Shown: piece after piece, positions 1,261 to 36,854 of the stretch
Layout of the letters: each line of letters begins with the position of its first letter
Position numbering within the stretch: the stretch's first letter is position 1
Source of the DNA: an uncultured Sphingomonas sp.
GTDB taxonomy: Bacteria; Pseudomonadota; Alphaproteobacteria; Sphingomonadales; Sphingomonadaceae
Reading direction: 5' to 3'
Length of the DNA stretch: 64,000 bases
Assembly: GCF_913062585.1 (NCBI RefSeq)
Contig: NZ_CAJXWX010000004.1
Span: 1-64,000 of the forward strand
Notes under the pieces: generated by a model
The model's input: only the letters and a program-made list of their open reading frames with translations
What the model was told of the DNA's origin: nothing
Databases searched by the model: none
Program-made: the position numbers and the translations under genes

Positions 1261-1968
1261 CTAGTTCTGCCAGTCCTTCGCGATTGCGGCCTTTTCGCCT
1301 GCCGCGTCGAGCGGCATGTCGGCCATCATGTCCTGCGCCGCCGCCATCAGTTCGGCATCGGACGATCCGGCTTGGGCATAGCCGCCGCCGCTGGCCACCG
1401 GCGCGGTACCGGGCATGGTGCGGCGGAGCGCCCAGCCCTTGGGGTCGCGACAGGCAATGCCGTCGGCTTGTGCCGATTGGAACACCCGGCAAAAGCCATT
1501 GTCCTGCGCACGGAAGCTGACCGCGACACGGACCGGCCCGCTGCCGCCGCTCGCCTGGTCGTCCAGCGCGCGTGCCAGCGATCCGGCGGCGTAGAGGCCG
1601 TGGTTCGTCGCGGCGACCGGGCCCTGGTCGACACGCTGGCCGACCACCACCCCGACGACCAGACACGCCGCCATCGCCGCCGCCGATTGCCAGGACGGCA
1701 GCGAAAAGCGCGAGGCAGGGCGGGCAGGGCGCACCGGCATCGGCACGATGTTGCTGGTGCCGGTCAGCAGGGCGGCCAGGCGATCGGGAACCGATTCTTC
1801 CGCCAGCGGGGCATAGGCCTGGGCGAGCTTCACCTTCAGGCGCCGATGCCGTGCGACCTCTTCGGCCAGGGCGGGGTCCGCTGCGATGGCCCGCTCCACC
1901 CGCTTCGTCGTCAGCGGATCGAGCGCATTGTCGGCATAGCCCATCAGCAGTTCGGGTTCGATCGTCAT
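1261..1968 (-). CDS. anti-sigma factor, single TM segment
   Basis: MTIEPELLMGYADNALDPLTTKRVERAIAADPALAEEVARHRRLK N-terminal anti-sigma-like region and hydrophobic AAAMAACLVVGVVVGQ; overlaps the upstream sigma gene by 4 nt. Confidence 0.72.
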   Translation of the reverse strand: MTIEPELLMGYADNALDPLTTKRVERAIAADPALAEEVARHRRLKVKLAQAYAPLAEESVPDRLAALLTGTSNIVPMPVRPARPASRFSLPSWQSAAAMAACLVVGVVVGQRVDQGPVAATNHGLYAAGSLARALDDQASGGSGPVRVAVSFRAQDNGFCRVFQSAQADGIACRDPKGWALRRTMPGTAPVASGGGYAQAGSSDAELMAAAQDMMADMPLDAAGEKAAIAKDWQN

Positions 1969-2450
1969 GCCGCTTCTCCCAGCCGCGCCATCAGTGCCTG
2001 TCGCCCGCGCACCAGCCGCGAGGTCAGGGTTCCCATCGGGATGTCCAGTATCTCGGCCGCTTCCTTATAGGCCAGCCCCTCGACCAGCACGAGGGCCACC
2101 GCCTCGCGCTGCTCGGCGGGCAGGGCGCGCATCGCGGCATCGACCTCGCCGAGCGCCACACGCGCCTCGGCATTGCCTTCGGCACCGATGGCCATGCCCG
2201 CCTCCTCGGCGACGAAGGTTTCCGCCGCCCGGCGCCGCGAGCGGGCGGTATCGATCCAGGCGTTGCGCATGATCCGGTACATCCAGCTATCCAATCTCGT
2301 CCCGACCTGCCACGAACCCTGCGCCACCAGCGCCTTTTCGATCGCGACCTGGCAGAGATCGTCGGCATCCGCGGCATCATGGGTGAGCGATCGCGCGAAC
2401 CGCCGCAATCGCGGGAGCAGCGCCAACAACTCATTCTCGAACGCGGCCAA
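1965..2450 (-). CDS. ECF-type RNA polymerase sigma factor (TTG start)
   Basis: Region 2 (DADDLCQVAIEKAL...WMYRIMRNAWIDTARSRRR) and region 4 (LPAEQREAVALVLVEGLAYKEAAEILDIPMGTLTSRLVRGRQAL). SD AAGGA sits upstream of the TTG start. Confidence 0.9.
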   Translation of the reverse strand: MAAFENELLALLPRLRRFARSLTHDAADADDLCQVAIEKALVAQGSWQVGTRLDSWMYRIMRNAWIDTARSRRRAAETFVAEEAGMAIGAEGNAEARVALGEVDAAMRALPAEQREAVALVLVEGLAYKEAAEILDIPMGTLTSRLVRGRQALMARLGEAA

Positions 2451-2468: not shown

Positions 2469-2501
2469 GGGATGAAACGGATGACGAGAAGCGTTTAATC
2501 C
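2469..2501. promoter_or_regulatory. candidate bidirectional ECF promoter (near-symmetric)
   Basis: + strand GGGAT(G)AAA-N14-CGTTT; - strand GGAT(T)AAA-N14-CGTTT. Arms GGATGAAACG (2470-2479) and CGTTTAATCC (2492-2501) form a 10-bp inverted repeat with one mismatch. Confidence 0.5.
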
Positions 2502-2536: not shown

Positions 2537-3811
2537 ATGAAGTGGGGGGCACGCCGCTACCTGACGCTGCTGGCCACCGTCGCCGCGATCGGCGGCGGGG
2601 CGGGCGTCGTCCATGCTCAGCTGGGCGGTGGCCTGCCGAACCTGCCGTCGCCGGGCGGCGTGCTATCGTCTCTCGGGCTGCCCAAGGCACCCTCTCTGCT
2701 GGAGCCGGTCGACGGGCTTGCCCGCGCCACGGCGGCCCGACTGGAGACGCTGCGTCGACAGACCTTCGCGCAGCTTGTCCACGATCATCCGGATGCGATC
2801 GCCCTCGACCCACAGGGTTTCCCCGCGCGTGCCGGGGAGGTGGTGGTCGATGCGCCGAGCGATATGCTGATCGCCGAGGCCACCAAAGCAGGTTACGGCG
2901 TCATCGAACGGGACGATGTCCTGGGTGTCGGCTTTGTCCGGCTCAGGGTGCCGCAGGGCCTGTCGTTGAAAAAGGCACTGGACCAGCTGCGCAGGCTGGG
3001 GGGCGAGGTCAGCGCGGATCAGCTCCACCTGGCGAGCGGCGGGATCGAGACCGGCGCCCCCTATATGACGGCTGAGGCGGCACGCTCGGACACGATGGTC
3101 GGCGTCATCGATGGCGGCGTCGAGGGCGCGGCGATGGTACGAGGGTTCGCCAGCGGCGCGCCGCGTCCTAACGATCATGGCACCGCTGTCGCGTCGTTGA
3201 TAGCCGGCGGCAACGGCATTCGCGGTGCGCTGCCCGGCGCACGGATCGCGTCGGCCGATGTCTATGGAACGGACCCGGCGGGCGGCAACGCCACCGCCAT
3301 CGCCAAGGCGCTGGGCTGGCTGGTCGGCGTGCGCGTGCCGGTCGTGACGATCAGCCTGGTCGGGCCATCCAATCCCCTGCTCGCGCGCGTCGTAGCAGCG
3401 GCACAGGCGCGCGGGACGATCATCGTCGCGGCGGTGGGCAATAACGGCCCGGCCTCGCCGCCCGCCTATCCGGCGTCCTATCCTGGCGTGATCGCGGTCA
3501 GCGGCGTCGATCGGCGCAACCGGCCACTGATCGAGGCGGGGCGTGCCTCGCACCTCGACTATGTCGCGCCGGCGGCGGACATGCTGGCGGCGGGCGTGGG
3601 CGGTCGGCGTTTCGCGGTGCGCGGTACGTCCTTTGCCGCCCCGCTGGTCGCCGGGCGGATCGCGGCGGTCTATCCTACGCCGGTACCCGACCAAATTCGC
3701 GCCGCCCTGGCCAAAATCGACGCCGAAGCGCGCCGTGCGGGTCTGAAAGGTGCGGAAAAAAACATAGGCCGTGGAATGGTTTGCGGTGATTGCCGCACCG
3801 TGGTTCAATAA
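2537..3811 (+). CDS. S8 family serine peptidase (subtilase), secreted
   Basis: Signal peptide; catalytic motifs VGVIDGGV (Asp), NDHGTAVASLIAG (His), GTSFAAPLVAG (Ser). Confidence 0.92.
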   Translation: MKWGARRYLTLLATVAAIGGGAGVVHAQLGGGLPNLPSPGGVLSSLGLPKAPSLLEPVDGLARATAARLETLRRQTFAQLVHDHPDAIALDPQGFPARAGEVVVDAPSDMLIAEATKAGYGVIERDDVLGVGFVRLRVPQGLSLKKALDQLRRLGGEVSADQLHLASGGIETGAPYMTAEAARSDTMVGVIDGGVEGAAMVRGFASGAPRPNDHGTAVASLIAGGNGIRGALPGARIASADVYGTDPAGGNATAIAKALGWLVGVRVPVVTISLVGPSNPLLARVVAAAQARGTIIVAAVGNNGPASPPAYPASYPGVIAVSGVDRRNRPLIEAGRASHLDYVAPAADMLAAGVGGRRFAVRGTSFAAPLVAGRIAAVYPTPVPDQIRAALAKIDAEARRAGLKGAEKNIGRGMVCGDCRTVVQ

Positions 3812-3825
3812 AATCGCAAAAATCC

Positions 3826-3853
3826 GGGATTAAATCCGCAGCACCCATCGTTG
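3826..3853 (+). promoter_or_regulatory. candidate ECF promoter upstream of the Gly/Ala-rich gene
   Basis: GGGATTAAA-N14-CGTTG, same -35-like word and spacing as the promoter at 2469-2496. Confidence 0.42.
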
Positions 3854-3877: not shown

Positions 3878-4750
3878 ATGATGAAGAAGTTTCTGTCTGG
3901 CACCGCGATCCTTGCCGTTGCTCTGGTCGCATCGCCCGCTTCGGCGCAGCTTCTTGGCGGCGGCGGTCTGGGCGGCGGCCTGGGCGGTCAGCTCGGTAGC
4001 GTTACTGGCGGCATGACCGGCGCGGCGACGGGTTCGCTTGAGGGTGCGACGCAGCAGGGCCGGATCGCGACCGAAGGTGCGACCCGCACGCGGGGTTCGG
4101 TCCGCGGCGATCGCAATGTCGACCTTCGCCGGGGCCAGGTGAGTGCCTCGGGCAATGCCTCGGGTGACTCGGCGGTGGACAGCGCGACCCGCATCGGTCG
4201 CCAGTCGGGCGGTGCGAACGGTTCGGCCTCGGGCTCGGTGGGCGGCGGCATCGATGCGCAGCTGGTCGGGACCGACGCGGTGCGTGATGCGGCCGGTCGC
4301 GGTGTGAATGCCGTCGGCAACGTCGCCCAGCGGACGCGCGATACCGCCGGAGCGGTGGCCAACCGGGCTCGCGGTGCGGTCGGGAGTGTCGCCGAGCGTG
4401 CGGCCAATGTCGGTGGCAATACGGCGGGGTCCGCGAACGGAGCAGCCTCGGGCACGCTGTCGACGGGCGCCGGAAACGGTTCGCTGGCGGGCAATCTGGC
4501 GCTGGCCGGTAGCGGTGCGGCAGGCGGCGGTGCCTTTCCGGTGAACCCGGGCATGGCCGTCACCGATGCGCAGGGCCGGACGATCGGCGCGGTCCAGTCG
4601 GTGCGCACCAACGCCCAGGGCGCGGTCGAGCGGGTGCTGGTCAAGGTCGGCAACCGGGTCGCCAACCTGCCCGCCGCCAATTTCTCTGGTTCGGGCAGCG
4701 CCCTCGTCTCGGCCATGGGACAGGGCCAGGTGAGCAGCGCGGCGAAGTAA
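3878..4750 (+). CDS. secreted Gly/Ala-rich hypothetical protein with C-terminal PRC-barrel-like segment
   Basis: SD TAAGGAG before ATG 3878; signal peptide MMKKFLSGTAILAVALVASPASAQ; low-complexity G/A/N/R body; C-terminal VTDAQGRTIGAVQSVRTNAQGAVERVLVKVGNRVANLPAANF. Confidence 0.75.
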   Translation: MMKKFLSGTAILAVALVASPASAQLLGGGGLGGGLGGQLGSVTGGMTGAATGSLEGATQQGRIATEGATRTRGSVRGDRNVDLRRGQVSASGNASGDSAVDSATRIGRQSGGANGSASGSVGGGIDAQLVGTDAVRDAAGRGVNAVGNVAQRTRDTAGAVANRARGAVGSVAERAANVGGNTAGSANGAASGTLSTGAGNGSLAGNLALAGSGAAGGGAFPVNPGMAVTDAQGRTIGAVQSVRTNAQGAVERVLVKVGNRVANLPAANFSGSGSALVSAMGQGQVSSAAK

Positions 4751-17550: not shown

Positions 17551-19943
17551 GATTTTCGGGCGGGGGAGCGGCGTGGGTGATGCTGGTCGCGGCGATACCT
17601 GCGACCGCCGCCGATCGCTGGCCCATCGACCTGCCCGCCGGGACCGTCGGCGCGCAGGTCATGGCGCTTGGCCGGAGCGCGCGGGCGAATATCACGGTGC
17701 CGGATGCGACGCTCTGGAACCGGCCGGTTCCCGCGCTTCGTGGCAGGCTGTCGGTCGAACAGGCCTTGTCGGCGATCGCACGGGGTAGCGGCGCGCGGGT
17801 CGAGACGCTGGGGCCGGGCAGCTGGCGGCTCACCCCGCGACGCATTGCCACGGCCCGGCCCAAACGCGTACGCGCACATCCCCAGCCGTCCGAGGTCGCG
17901 AGCGACGACATCATCGTCACTGCCAGCAAGCGCGATACGACCCGCGATCATTTCGCGGGCCAGGTCGTTCGGGTGGCGGGCGGCGATCTGGAGCTGGGCG
18001 GCGTCGGGGGTACGGGCAAGCTGGCCGACCGGATGACGGTCGTTGCCTCGACCTATCTGGGTGCGGGGCGGAACAAGCTGTTCATCCGGGGCATCGCCGA
18101 TTCCAGTTTCACCGGCCCGACCCAGGCGACGGTCGGCCAGTATTTCGGCGACCTGCGGCTGAGCTACAACGCCCCCGACCCGGACCTGCGGCTGGCCGAT
18201 CTGGCGGCGGTCGAGGTGCTGGAGGGGCCGCAAGGGACGCTTTACGGCGCAGGCTCGCTCGGTGGATTGATCCGGCTGGTACCCAACGCGCCCGATGCGA
18301 CCCGTACGGGTGGATCGGTCAGCCTGGGCGGGTCGGCGACGATGCACGGAGAGCCGGGCGCCGATGCGCAGGCCGTGCTCAACCTGCCCATCGTCGCCGA
18401 CCGGCTCGCGATCCGGCTGGTCGCGGATAGCGCGAGCGAAGGGGGCTATGTCGACAAGCCGCTGCTCGGCCGAACCGATGTAAACCGCACCCGGATCGCA
18501 GGCGGACGTGCGGCGGTAAAGGCCGATCTCGGCGGCGGCTGGAGCATCGAGGCGGTGGGCATCGGCCAGCGCATTCGCGGTGCCGACAGCCAATATGTCG
18601 ATCGCGATGGCCCGCCGCTGACCCGATCGTCACCCGTGACCGAGGGGTTTTCCGCCGACTTCGGGCAGGCGCAACTGATCCTGTCCGGCAAAATCGGCCA
18701 GGTCCGCTTTCGCTCCAGCAGCGGCGTGACGGCGCACGACCTGATGGAGCGTTACGATGCGACCCCGCCCGGCGGCCCGGTCCAGCTCTTTGCCCAGGCC
18801 AATGCCACGCGGATGCAGGCCAACGAGACGCGTGCCTGGCGGTCGTCGCCCGACGGATCGGGCTGGCTGGCCGGGTTCAGCTATGTCCATAATCGCACCC
18901 GGCTGACCCGGTTGTTCGGCGAACCCGGCCAACTCGTGCCGCGTACCGGCGTCGTCAACACGGTCGAGGAGGCGACGCTTTACGGCGAGGCAAGCCTGCG
19001 GCTGTTGCCCGGGCTGCTGACCACCGGCGGCCTGCGCGTCACCCGATCTTTACTCGATGGCGCAGGCGAGGACCTGCCTGCCGCCCTGTCCCTCCAGGCG
19101 ATGGCGCGGCTGCGTGAGGTGACGGCGCGGCGCGCGCAGACGATCCTGCTGCCATCCGCATCGGCGCTGATCGACCTGACGGCGGGCGCGCAACTCTTCC
19201 TGCGCTATCAGCAGGGGTTCCGGCCGGGCGGCTTGACGATCGAGGGGCCGCTGGTCCGCCGGTTCCGCAACGACCGGGTCGCCACGATTGAGGCGGGGCT
19301 GCGTACCGGACGGCCGGGTCGCGACCGGTTCGATGGATCGCTGACGCTCGCCCATACCGCGTGGCGCGACATCCAGGCGGACTTCATCGACGCGAGCGGC
19401 CTGCCCAGCACTGCTAATATCGGTGACGGCCAGCTCTGGACCGTCGAGGCGCTCGCCGGTTTCCGGGTCGTGGAGGGACTGCGGATCGAGGGGGCCGTGT
19501 CCTATAATGACAGCCGGATCGACGAGCCGTCGACCGCACAGGCCTTTGCCCTCATCGACGGGCAGGCAACCGATCGCGCGACGATCCTGGCACGGCTGAG
19601 CCAGATCCCGAACATCGCCCGCGTGACCGCGCGAACCGGGGCGGTGTATCGCCGCACCTTTGCCAGCGGTCGCGACCTGCGCGTCGATGGCTGGTTGCGC
19701 TATGTCGGGTCGTCACGGCTCGGCGTCGGGCCGATCCTGGGCGAGCGACAGGGCGACTATCTGGACAGCGGTCTGACCGCTAGGCTGGGGCTGGGCGCGT
19801 TCGGCGTGACGGTGGGGATCACCAACCTCGCCGATGTGCGCGGCAACCGCTTCGCCCTGGGCACGCCCTTCACCACCGGGCGCGACCAGGTCACGCCGCT
19901 CCGCCCGCGAACGCTGCGGATCGGACTGGACGCCGCCTTCTGA
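17547..19943 (+). CDS. TonB-dependent receptor with N-terminal STN domain
   Basis: GTG start overlapping fecR; STN-like DLPAGTVGAQVMALGRSARANITVPDA; plug VEVLEGPQGTLYGAGSLGGLIRLVPN; C-terminal barrel ending LRIGLDAAF. Confidence 0.92.
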   Translation: MRFSGGGAAWVMLVAAIPATAADRWPIDLPAGTVGAQVMALGRSARANITVPDATLWNRPVPALRGRLSVEQALSAIARGSGARVETLGPGSWRLTPRRIATARPKRVRAHPQPSEVASDDIIVTASKRDTTRDHFAGQVVRVAGGDLELGGVGGTGKLADRMTVVASTYLGAGRNKLFIRGIADSSFTGPTQATVGQYFGDLRLSYNAPDPDLRLADLAAVEVLEGPQGTLYGAGSLGGLIRLVPNAPDATRTGGSVSLGGSATMHGEPGADAQAVLNLPIVADRLAIRLVADSASEGGYVDKPLLGRTDVNRTRIAGGRAAVKADLGGGWSIEAVGIGQRIRGADSQYVDRDGPPLTRSSPVTEGFSADFGQAQLILSGKIGQVRFRSSSGVTAHDLMERYDATPPGGPVQLFAQANATRMQANETRAWRSSPDGSGWLAGFSYVHNRTRLTRLFGEPGQLVPRTGVVNTVEEATLYGEASLRLLPGLLTTGGLRVTRSLLDGAGEDLPAALSLQAMARLREVTARRAQTILLPSASALIDLTAGAQLFLRYQQGFRPGGLTIEGPLVRRFRNDRVATIEAGLRTGRPGRDRFDGSLTLAHTAWRDIQADFIDASGLPSTANIGDGQLWTVEALAGFRVVEGLRIEGAVSYNDSRIDEPSTAQAFALIDGQATDRATILARLSQIPNIARVTARTGAVYRRTFASGRDLRVDGWLRYVGSSRLGVGPILGERQGDYLDSGLTARLGLGAFGVTVGITNLADVRGNRFALGTPFTTGRDQVTPLRPRTLRIGLDAAF

Positions 19944-36746: not shown

Positions 36747-36854
36747 GGCAAACTCCCCTTTATCGTGTTTGCGCTATCTTGTCGGACTAAAATCGCCCTG
36801 TCCACCGTTGAAAAGATACGCGAATTTCCGGTCAAACCCGTCGTCAACGTTGCC

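Follow-up and report, generated by a model that had tools for sequence, protein, structure and literature searches.

Of the studied systems compared here, the closest to ours is that of Sinorhizobium meliloti RpoE6, an ECF26 sigma factor whose overexpression activates its own anti-sigma gene together with a divergent serine-protease gene, SMa0142, in an arrangement that is reported to be widely conserved in ECF26 (PMC6180224). The locus analyzed here lies in a 64,000-nucleotide stretch of DNA from an uncultured Sphingomonas sp., which we call the window, and its sigma factor is 47% identical to RpoE6 (SMa0143) over region 8-153 (E 5e-36). The S. meliloti system also comprises EcfR6. In both systems a predicted membrane anti-sigma factor is encoded downstream, a divergent gene encodes an S8 protease (SMa0142 is 31% identical to the window's), and a GGA-type -35 is paired with a CGTT -10, both typical ECF elements (PMC8103513); the S. 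meliloti protease promoter reads GGAATA...CGTT. The systems differ in that the ECF26 consensus -35 is GGAATA while that of the window is GGATKAA, and in that the S. meliloti protease promoter (locus L295, 8934, - strand) lies outside any palindrome common with the sigma gene. Shinella (L297) also differs from the window in having two separate, non-overlapping promoters. Homology and the divergent serine protease fit membership of ECF26; the consensus of -35 GGAATA and -10 GT does not, GGATKAA being found in almost all palindromic loci, and because the GGAATA consensus is not matched we do not file the window sigma as a proven ECF26 member. On this analogy, the window system would work like the ECF26 system of S. 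meliloti, but with its two promoters fused.

The autoregulated promoters of EcfG (ECF15), GGAAC-N16/17-CGTT, resemble the window site in their CGTT -10, similar geometry and alphaproteobacterial setting. Palindromes of this kind (GGAACG-N15-17-CGTTCC) were considered as a general phenomenon and rejected, as they are not enriched over a reversed control in 61 genomes; the two in the window's genome lie inside coding sequence.

Bidirectional promoters are reported to be common in bacteria and are often taken as by-products of sequence symmetry. For sigma-70, bidirectional promoters that arise from symmetry of the DNA sequence were described by Warman et al., 2021, as cited in PMC12340889. The likeness to our site is that the symmetry of one short stretch of DNA leads to divergent transcription. 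Our site differs in that an alternative sigma factor would be used, in the overlap of each -35 with the -10 of the other strand, in two transcripts that would both belong to the same regulon, and in its conservation across orders. The present case would be that of an alternative sigma factor's own promoter fused with the promoter of a divergent target in one near-perfect palindrome. The sigma-70 promoters of Warman et al. reportedly depend on the housekeeping sigma factor, have a symmetric or shared -10, and often lack a gene-regulatory role. The literature searched, which took in a minority of subscription papers and not the main paper on the reclassification of ECF factors, contained no description of an overlapping palindromic ECF promoter.

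Two predicted promoters occupy one 32-bp palindrome

The features of the locus, and one further site elsewhere in the genome, are as follows.

1261..1968, - strand: putative anti-sigma factor, overlapping the sigma stop by 4 nt (1965-1968)
1965..2450, - strand: ECF sigma factor of 161 aa; start codon TTG, preceded by AAGGA; Pfam Sigma70_r2 (PF04542) and r4_2 (PF08281)
2470..2501, both strands: 32-bp inverted repeat GGATGAAACG-N12-CGTTTAATCC, predicted overlapping bidirectional ECF promoter
2470..2495, + strand: predicted subtilase-direction promoter, -35 GGATGAAA at 2470-2477, -10 CGTT at 2492-2495; predicted start ~2502; 41 nt from CGTT to the ATG at 2537
2476..2501, - strand: predicted sigma-direction promoter, -35 GGATTAAA at 2501-2494, -10 CGTT at 2479-2476 and preceded by CATC; predicted start ~2469; ~25 nt from CGTT to the TTG at 2450
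2537..3811, + strand: secreted S8 subtilase; Asp/His/Ser and the oxyanion Asn align to subtilisin BPN'
3827..3852, + strand: predicted one-way promoter of the Gly/Ala-rich gene, GGATTAAA-N14-CGTT, from sequence and conservation
3881..4750, + strand: secreted Gly/Ala-rich protein (PASAQLLGGGG...), predicted regulon member
18393..18418, - strand, of contig C23 in the window's genome, G000 (4394-4419 of L177): fourth genome site, GGATTAAA-N14-CGTT

A sequence-only reading of the window had noticed that a -35-like element, N14 and CGTTT can be read on both strands of the same DNA, with arms that differ by one mismatch, and direct reading of 2469-2501 agrees on each point. The + strand carries GGGATGAAA at 2469-2477, N14 and CGTTT at 2492-2496, and the - strand carries GGATTAAA at 2501-2494, N14 and CGTTT at 2479-2475. 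The arms, GGATGAAACG at 2470-2479 and CGTTTAATCC at 2492-2501, have a single mismatch and are separated by a spacer of 12. Each arm contains the -35 of one promoter (GGATKAA) and, in its inner bases AACG, the complement of the other promoter's -10 (CGTT), so that two GGATKAAA-N14-CGTT promoters on opposite strands share the same 32 bp (2470-2501). By sequence and conservation, the elements for both directions overlap in one site, as expected of a bidirectional promoter.

The sigma factor has regions 2 and 4 only, joined by a short linker, as in ECF (group IV sigma-70) factors, and a putative cognate anti-sigma gene follows it in the same operon and is present in 29 of 29 long loci. The product of 1261-1968 looks like a membrane anti-sigma factor. 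It matches the NCBIfam entry NF052375 (antisigma) with E 4e-13, below the curated cut-off, and its AF2 model (pLDDT 85) begins with a domain of helices at 5-12, 18-30, 32-51 and 62-70, followed by a single TM helix (~92-112) and a periplasmic alpha/beta domain; a Foldseek search of this model against the PDB gave no significant match. The periplasmic domain contains two cysteines, C160 and C173, that are invariant in our alignment (A1) and could possibly form a disulfide or redox sensor.

We take the module to comprise four genes, since among 29 longer loci those for anti-sigma, sigma and subtilase are present in all and the Gly-rich gene in 21, and the flanking oxidoreductase and mfd genes are kept in merely 3-4. 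No conserved DNA-binding gene besides sigma was found in the neighborhood in these 29 loci.

The palindrome is conserved across two orders

The sigma protein was used to search 151 genomes of the same genus, yielding 51 orthologues with E <1e-51 (the next tier begins at ~1e-30). Upstream regions were taken for 50 sigma loci, the window's own included, chosen by protein and not by motif. The palindrome is present in 50/50, with a spacer of 12 in every one, over a sigma identity range of 56-99%; the left arm is GGATGAAACG in 48 loci and the right arm CGTTT[AC]ATCC in all 50. The motif is thus kept beside the orthologues in the intergenic alignment that the sequence-only reading had proposed as a check. 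The flanking columns carry little information and are not conserved, and bases with a role only in the subtilase-direction promoter vary no more than the rest.

A blind, exact scan of 257 billion bases of GTDB genomes for GGATGAAACG-N11-13-CGTTTMATCC, with spacers of 11-13 allowed, found at least 119 stretches. Among the matches listed, 111 sit immediately ahead of a sigma orthologue; these come from Sphingomonadales and Caulobacterales, and every one has a spacer of 12. Seven listed matches, from Exiguobacterium, Calothrix, Bifidobacterium and others, have no orthologous sigma gene, a number close to the two or three expected by chance under equal base use, and one listed match reaches the end of its stretch. 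Taking the 50 protein-chosen loci and the blind-scan matches listed, the palindrome is present with a spacer of 12 in 162/162 sigma loci, and 152 of 160 divergent ORFs in this set are homologous to the window's subtilase. In a separate sample at family and class level, both overlapping promoters, each with no more than one mismatch, were present at 55 loci, and a divergent subtilase accompanies 55/55 of these versus 11/37 loci without overlap (Fisher p 1.5e-14, a value not to be taken literally as the loci are related). Judged by these alignments, the palindrome is kept with hardly a letter changed across two bacterial orders.

Arm variation follows promoter function

One-way copies of the motif often end the -35 octamer with G (GGATTAAG) and have CC, TC, CG, GC or AC at the two positions after it, whereas in the palindromes of the 50 same-genus loci arm positions 8-10 are always A-C-G, the complement of the opposite strand's CGTT. 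Variability in the one-way sites and fixation in the palindrome fit two superimposed promoters. Of the palindromes at 105 loci, 53 show no mismatch between the arms, 49 show one and 3 show two, and nearly all of this variation falls at position 5, where either promoter takes G or T. CATC precedes CGTT in the sigma direction in 36 of the 105, more commonly than in the subtilase direction, and the two directions may therefore be of unequal strength.

The two arms seem to track the specificity of a single sigma factor, although the correlation is not strict. In L274 (GGAAGAAACG/CGTTTCTTCC) and L281 (GGAAGAAACG/CGTTTATTCC) both arms have changed from GGAT to GGAA, and in L269 GGAA is found in one arm only. 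Where the arms are GGAT, the residue x of the recognition-helix motif SRL-x-RGR is V in 156 rows, the exceptions being 3 rows with A and 11 with G. All three rows with GGAA arms have A, and 22 of the 23 rows with one-way GGAA promoters have A or S. A strict one-to-one code between this sigma4 helix residue and the fourth -35 base, which was perfect in a first sample, was dropped when the larger sample contained exceptions.

One genome (G262) carries two paralogous modules, L210 with GGAT/GGAT-type arms and L281 with GGAA/GGAA, which are possibly insulated from each other.

The overlap is a derived state of one sigma clade

On a phylogenetic tree, the palindrome occurs in 71 of 74 rows of one supported clade (97/95) and in 0/38 rows outside it. 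Among the exceptions within the clade, L264 has the palindrome with one mismatch and L237 sits on a long branch of uncertain place. The third exception, an orthologous sigma with 56% identity (L276/L294, genome G164), has lost the palindrome in both directions along with the divergent subtilase. For most sigma homologues of 40-55% identity in other Alphaproteobacteria, the sigma-direction promoter is one-way and of the GGAATA type, and where outgroups have a divergent subtilase, a second, separate GGAATA promoter is found in 6/11, as it is in Shinella. By this distribution, promoter overlap is a derived state of one sigma clade.

Motif copies track the sigma factor

Within the 64 kb, GGATKAAA-N14-CGTT with at most one mismatch occurs 4 times, versus 0.15 expected in shuffles, and the three exact sites fall within 1.4 kb. 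The third, which the sequence-only reading had also reported, is indeed there before the Gly/Ala-rich gene, as GGGATTAAA-N14-CGTTG at 3826-3853. The genome-wide search that it had suggested yields 4 exact sites in the whole 3.9 Mb genome and 0 in the reversed control. The fourth site lies ~35 nt before a gene for a 256-aa secreted beta-barrel-like protein (PF13557, E 1e-8). This barrel gene is present in 9 of 20 tested sigma-bearing genomes, with the motif ~35 nt before the start codon in 9/9; it is unlinked to the sigma locus in the window's genome and adjoins the sigma operon in G060. A one-mismatch motif at 36784-36809 of the window, GGACTAAA-N14-CGTT, is probably a chance match.

Each of 50 same-genus genomes that have the sigma factor contains the motif, with 170 sites in total and 0 for the reversed control. 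In 50 genomes of the genus that lack the sigma factor there are 8 sites, versus 9 in the control. These sigma-less genomes also lack the sigma's neighbors, so that the comparison does not tell sigma apart from another co-lost gene, although sigma is the one DNA-binding gene conserved in the neighborhood. One-way copies precede the Gly-rich gene in 88 of 125 loci exactly and in 27 more with one deviation, and a control stretch inside the subtilase gene has the motif in 0/144. In most loci this third site is 1.26-1.42 kb downstream of the palindrome, before Gly-rich orthologues. The earlier suggestion of a bidirectional ECF promoter thus gains support from phylogenetic footprinting. That this sigma factor would drive all three sites is favored by the co-occurrence of motif and sigma, with control levels where sigma is absent, and for the third site also by its retention before Gly-rich orthologues; the link between sigma and promoter is further consistent with kinship to S. 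meliloti RpoE6 (PMC6180224). The predicted sigma/anti-sigma/subtilase/Gly-rich regulon would extend through Sphingomonas, Novosphingobium, Sphingobium, Erythrobacter-type genera, Brevundimonas and Caulobacter relatives, and no experimental study of it was found in the literature searched.

A single site probably read in either orientation

Taken together, these data make it very probable that the palindrome is a single RNA-polymerase site read in either orientation by the ECF sigma factor encoded at 1965-2450, which would control a small regulon. The palindrome has the size of an operator and lies between divergent genes, and it could instead bind a repressor or activator dimer and resemble ECF promoters only by coincidence. 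We think this quite improbable: the same pair of half-sequences recurs in non-palindromic, directional form with a fixed 26-bp geometry before the Gly-rich and barrel genes, sigma is the sole conserved DNA-binding gene nearby, outgroup sigmas have one-way GGAATA..CGTT promoters at the equivalent place, and a CGTT -10 with a GGA -35 is typical of ECF promoters (PMC8103513). Still less credible, to the point of being negligible, is a role of the inverted repeat as a hairpin or terminator at the RNA or DNA level. The 10-bp arms could pair, but a scan found no terminator-like site, the predicted transcripts begin beyond the repeat, and the second arm is absent at one-way copies; in addition, 52 of the 105 variants have one or two arm mismatches, and position 5 follows promoter tolerance (K) and not pairing.

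It could also be that only one direction works for this sigma factor, that of its own operon or that of the subtilase, with the symmetry a by-product or the other gene served by a different promoter. The greater frequency of CATC before CGTT in the sigma direction (36/105) leaves room for different strengths, and a weak scan found no sigma-70-like promoter near the palindrome. We give this explanation little credence, about as little as the operator, because the bases used only in the subtilase direction are as invariant as the others, L276, the sole clear orthologue without the subtilase, has lost the motif both ways too, and several outgroups and S. meliloti have separate subtilase-direction GGAATA promoters.

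Under the preferred reading of one site used in both orientations, polymerase bound in one orientation would transcribe the sigma/anti-sigma operon, giving positive autoregulation, and in the other the secreted subtilase. Judging from the geometry, the two footprints would coincide, and only one orientation could be occupied at a time. A membrane signal would release sigma from its anti-sigma factor and switch on a small regulon of sigma/anti-sigma, the subtilase and the Gly-rich secreted protein, joined in the closest relatives of the window by the outer-membrane barrel protein. The protease may cut a substrate that is secreted or lies in the envelope, perhaps the anti-sigma factor itself.

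We tentatively propose, as an idea that may well prove wrong, that the site acts as an orientation switch: transcription of sigma/anti-sigma and of the protease would be mutually exclusive per event, with the ratio set by small asymmetries, namely -35 position 5 and CATC before the -10. The two promoters would have been fused once from separate GGAATA promoters as the sigma's -35 preference changed, and then retained in both Sphingomonadales and Caulobacterales, where the fused site would serve to set the ratio within a feedback loop. With their many natural variants, the loci make a compact system for asking if the orientation of RNA polymerase on a single site links divergent transcription or makes it mutually exclusive.

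In Sphingomonas parapaucimobilis (L296 3959-4486) and similar records, the deposited sigma annotation starts 42 nt upstream of the conserved start, and in L296 this annotated start falls inside the palindrome. If our reading of the promoter is right, the annotated N-termini of this sigma family are too long.
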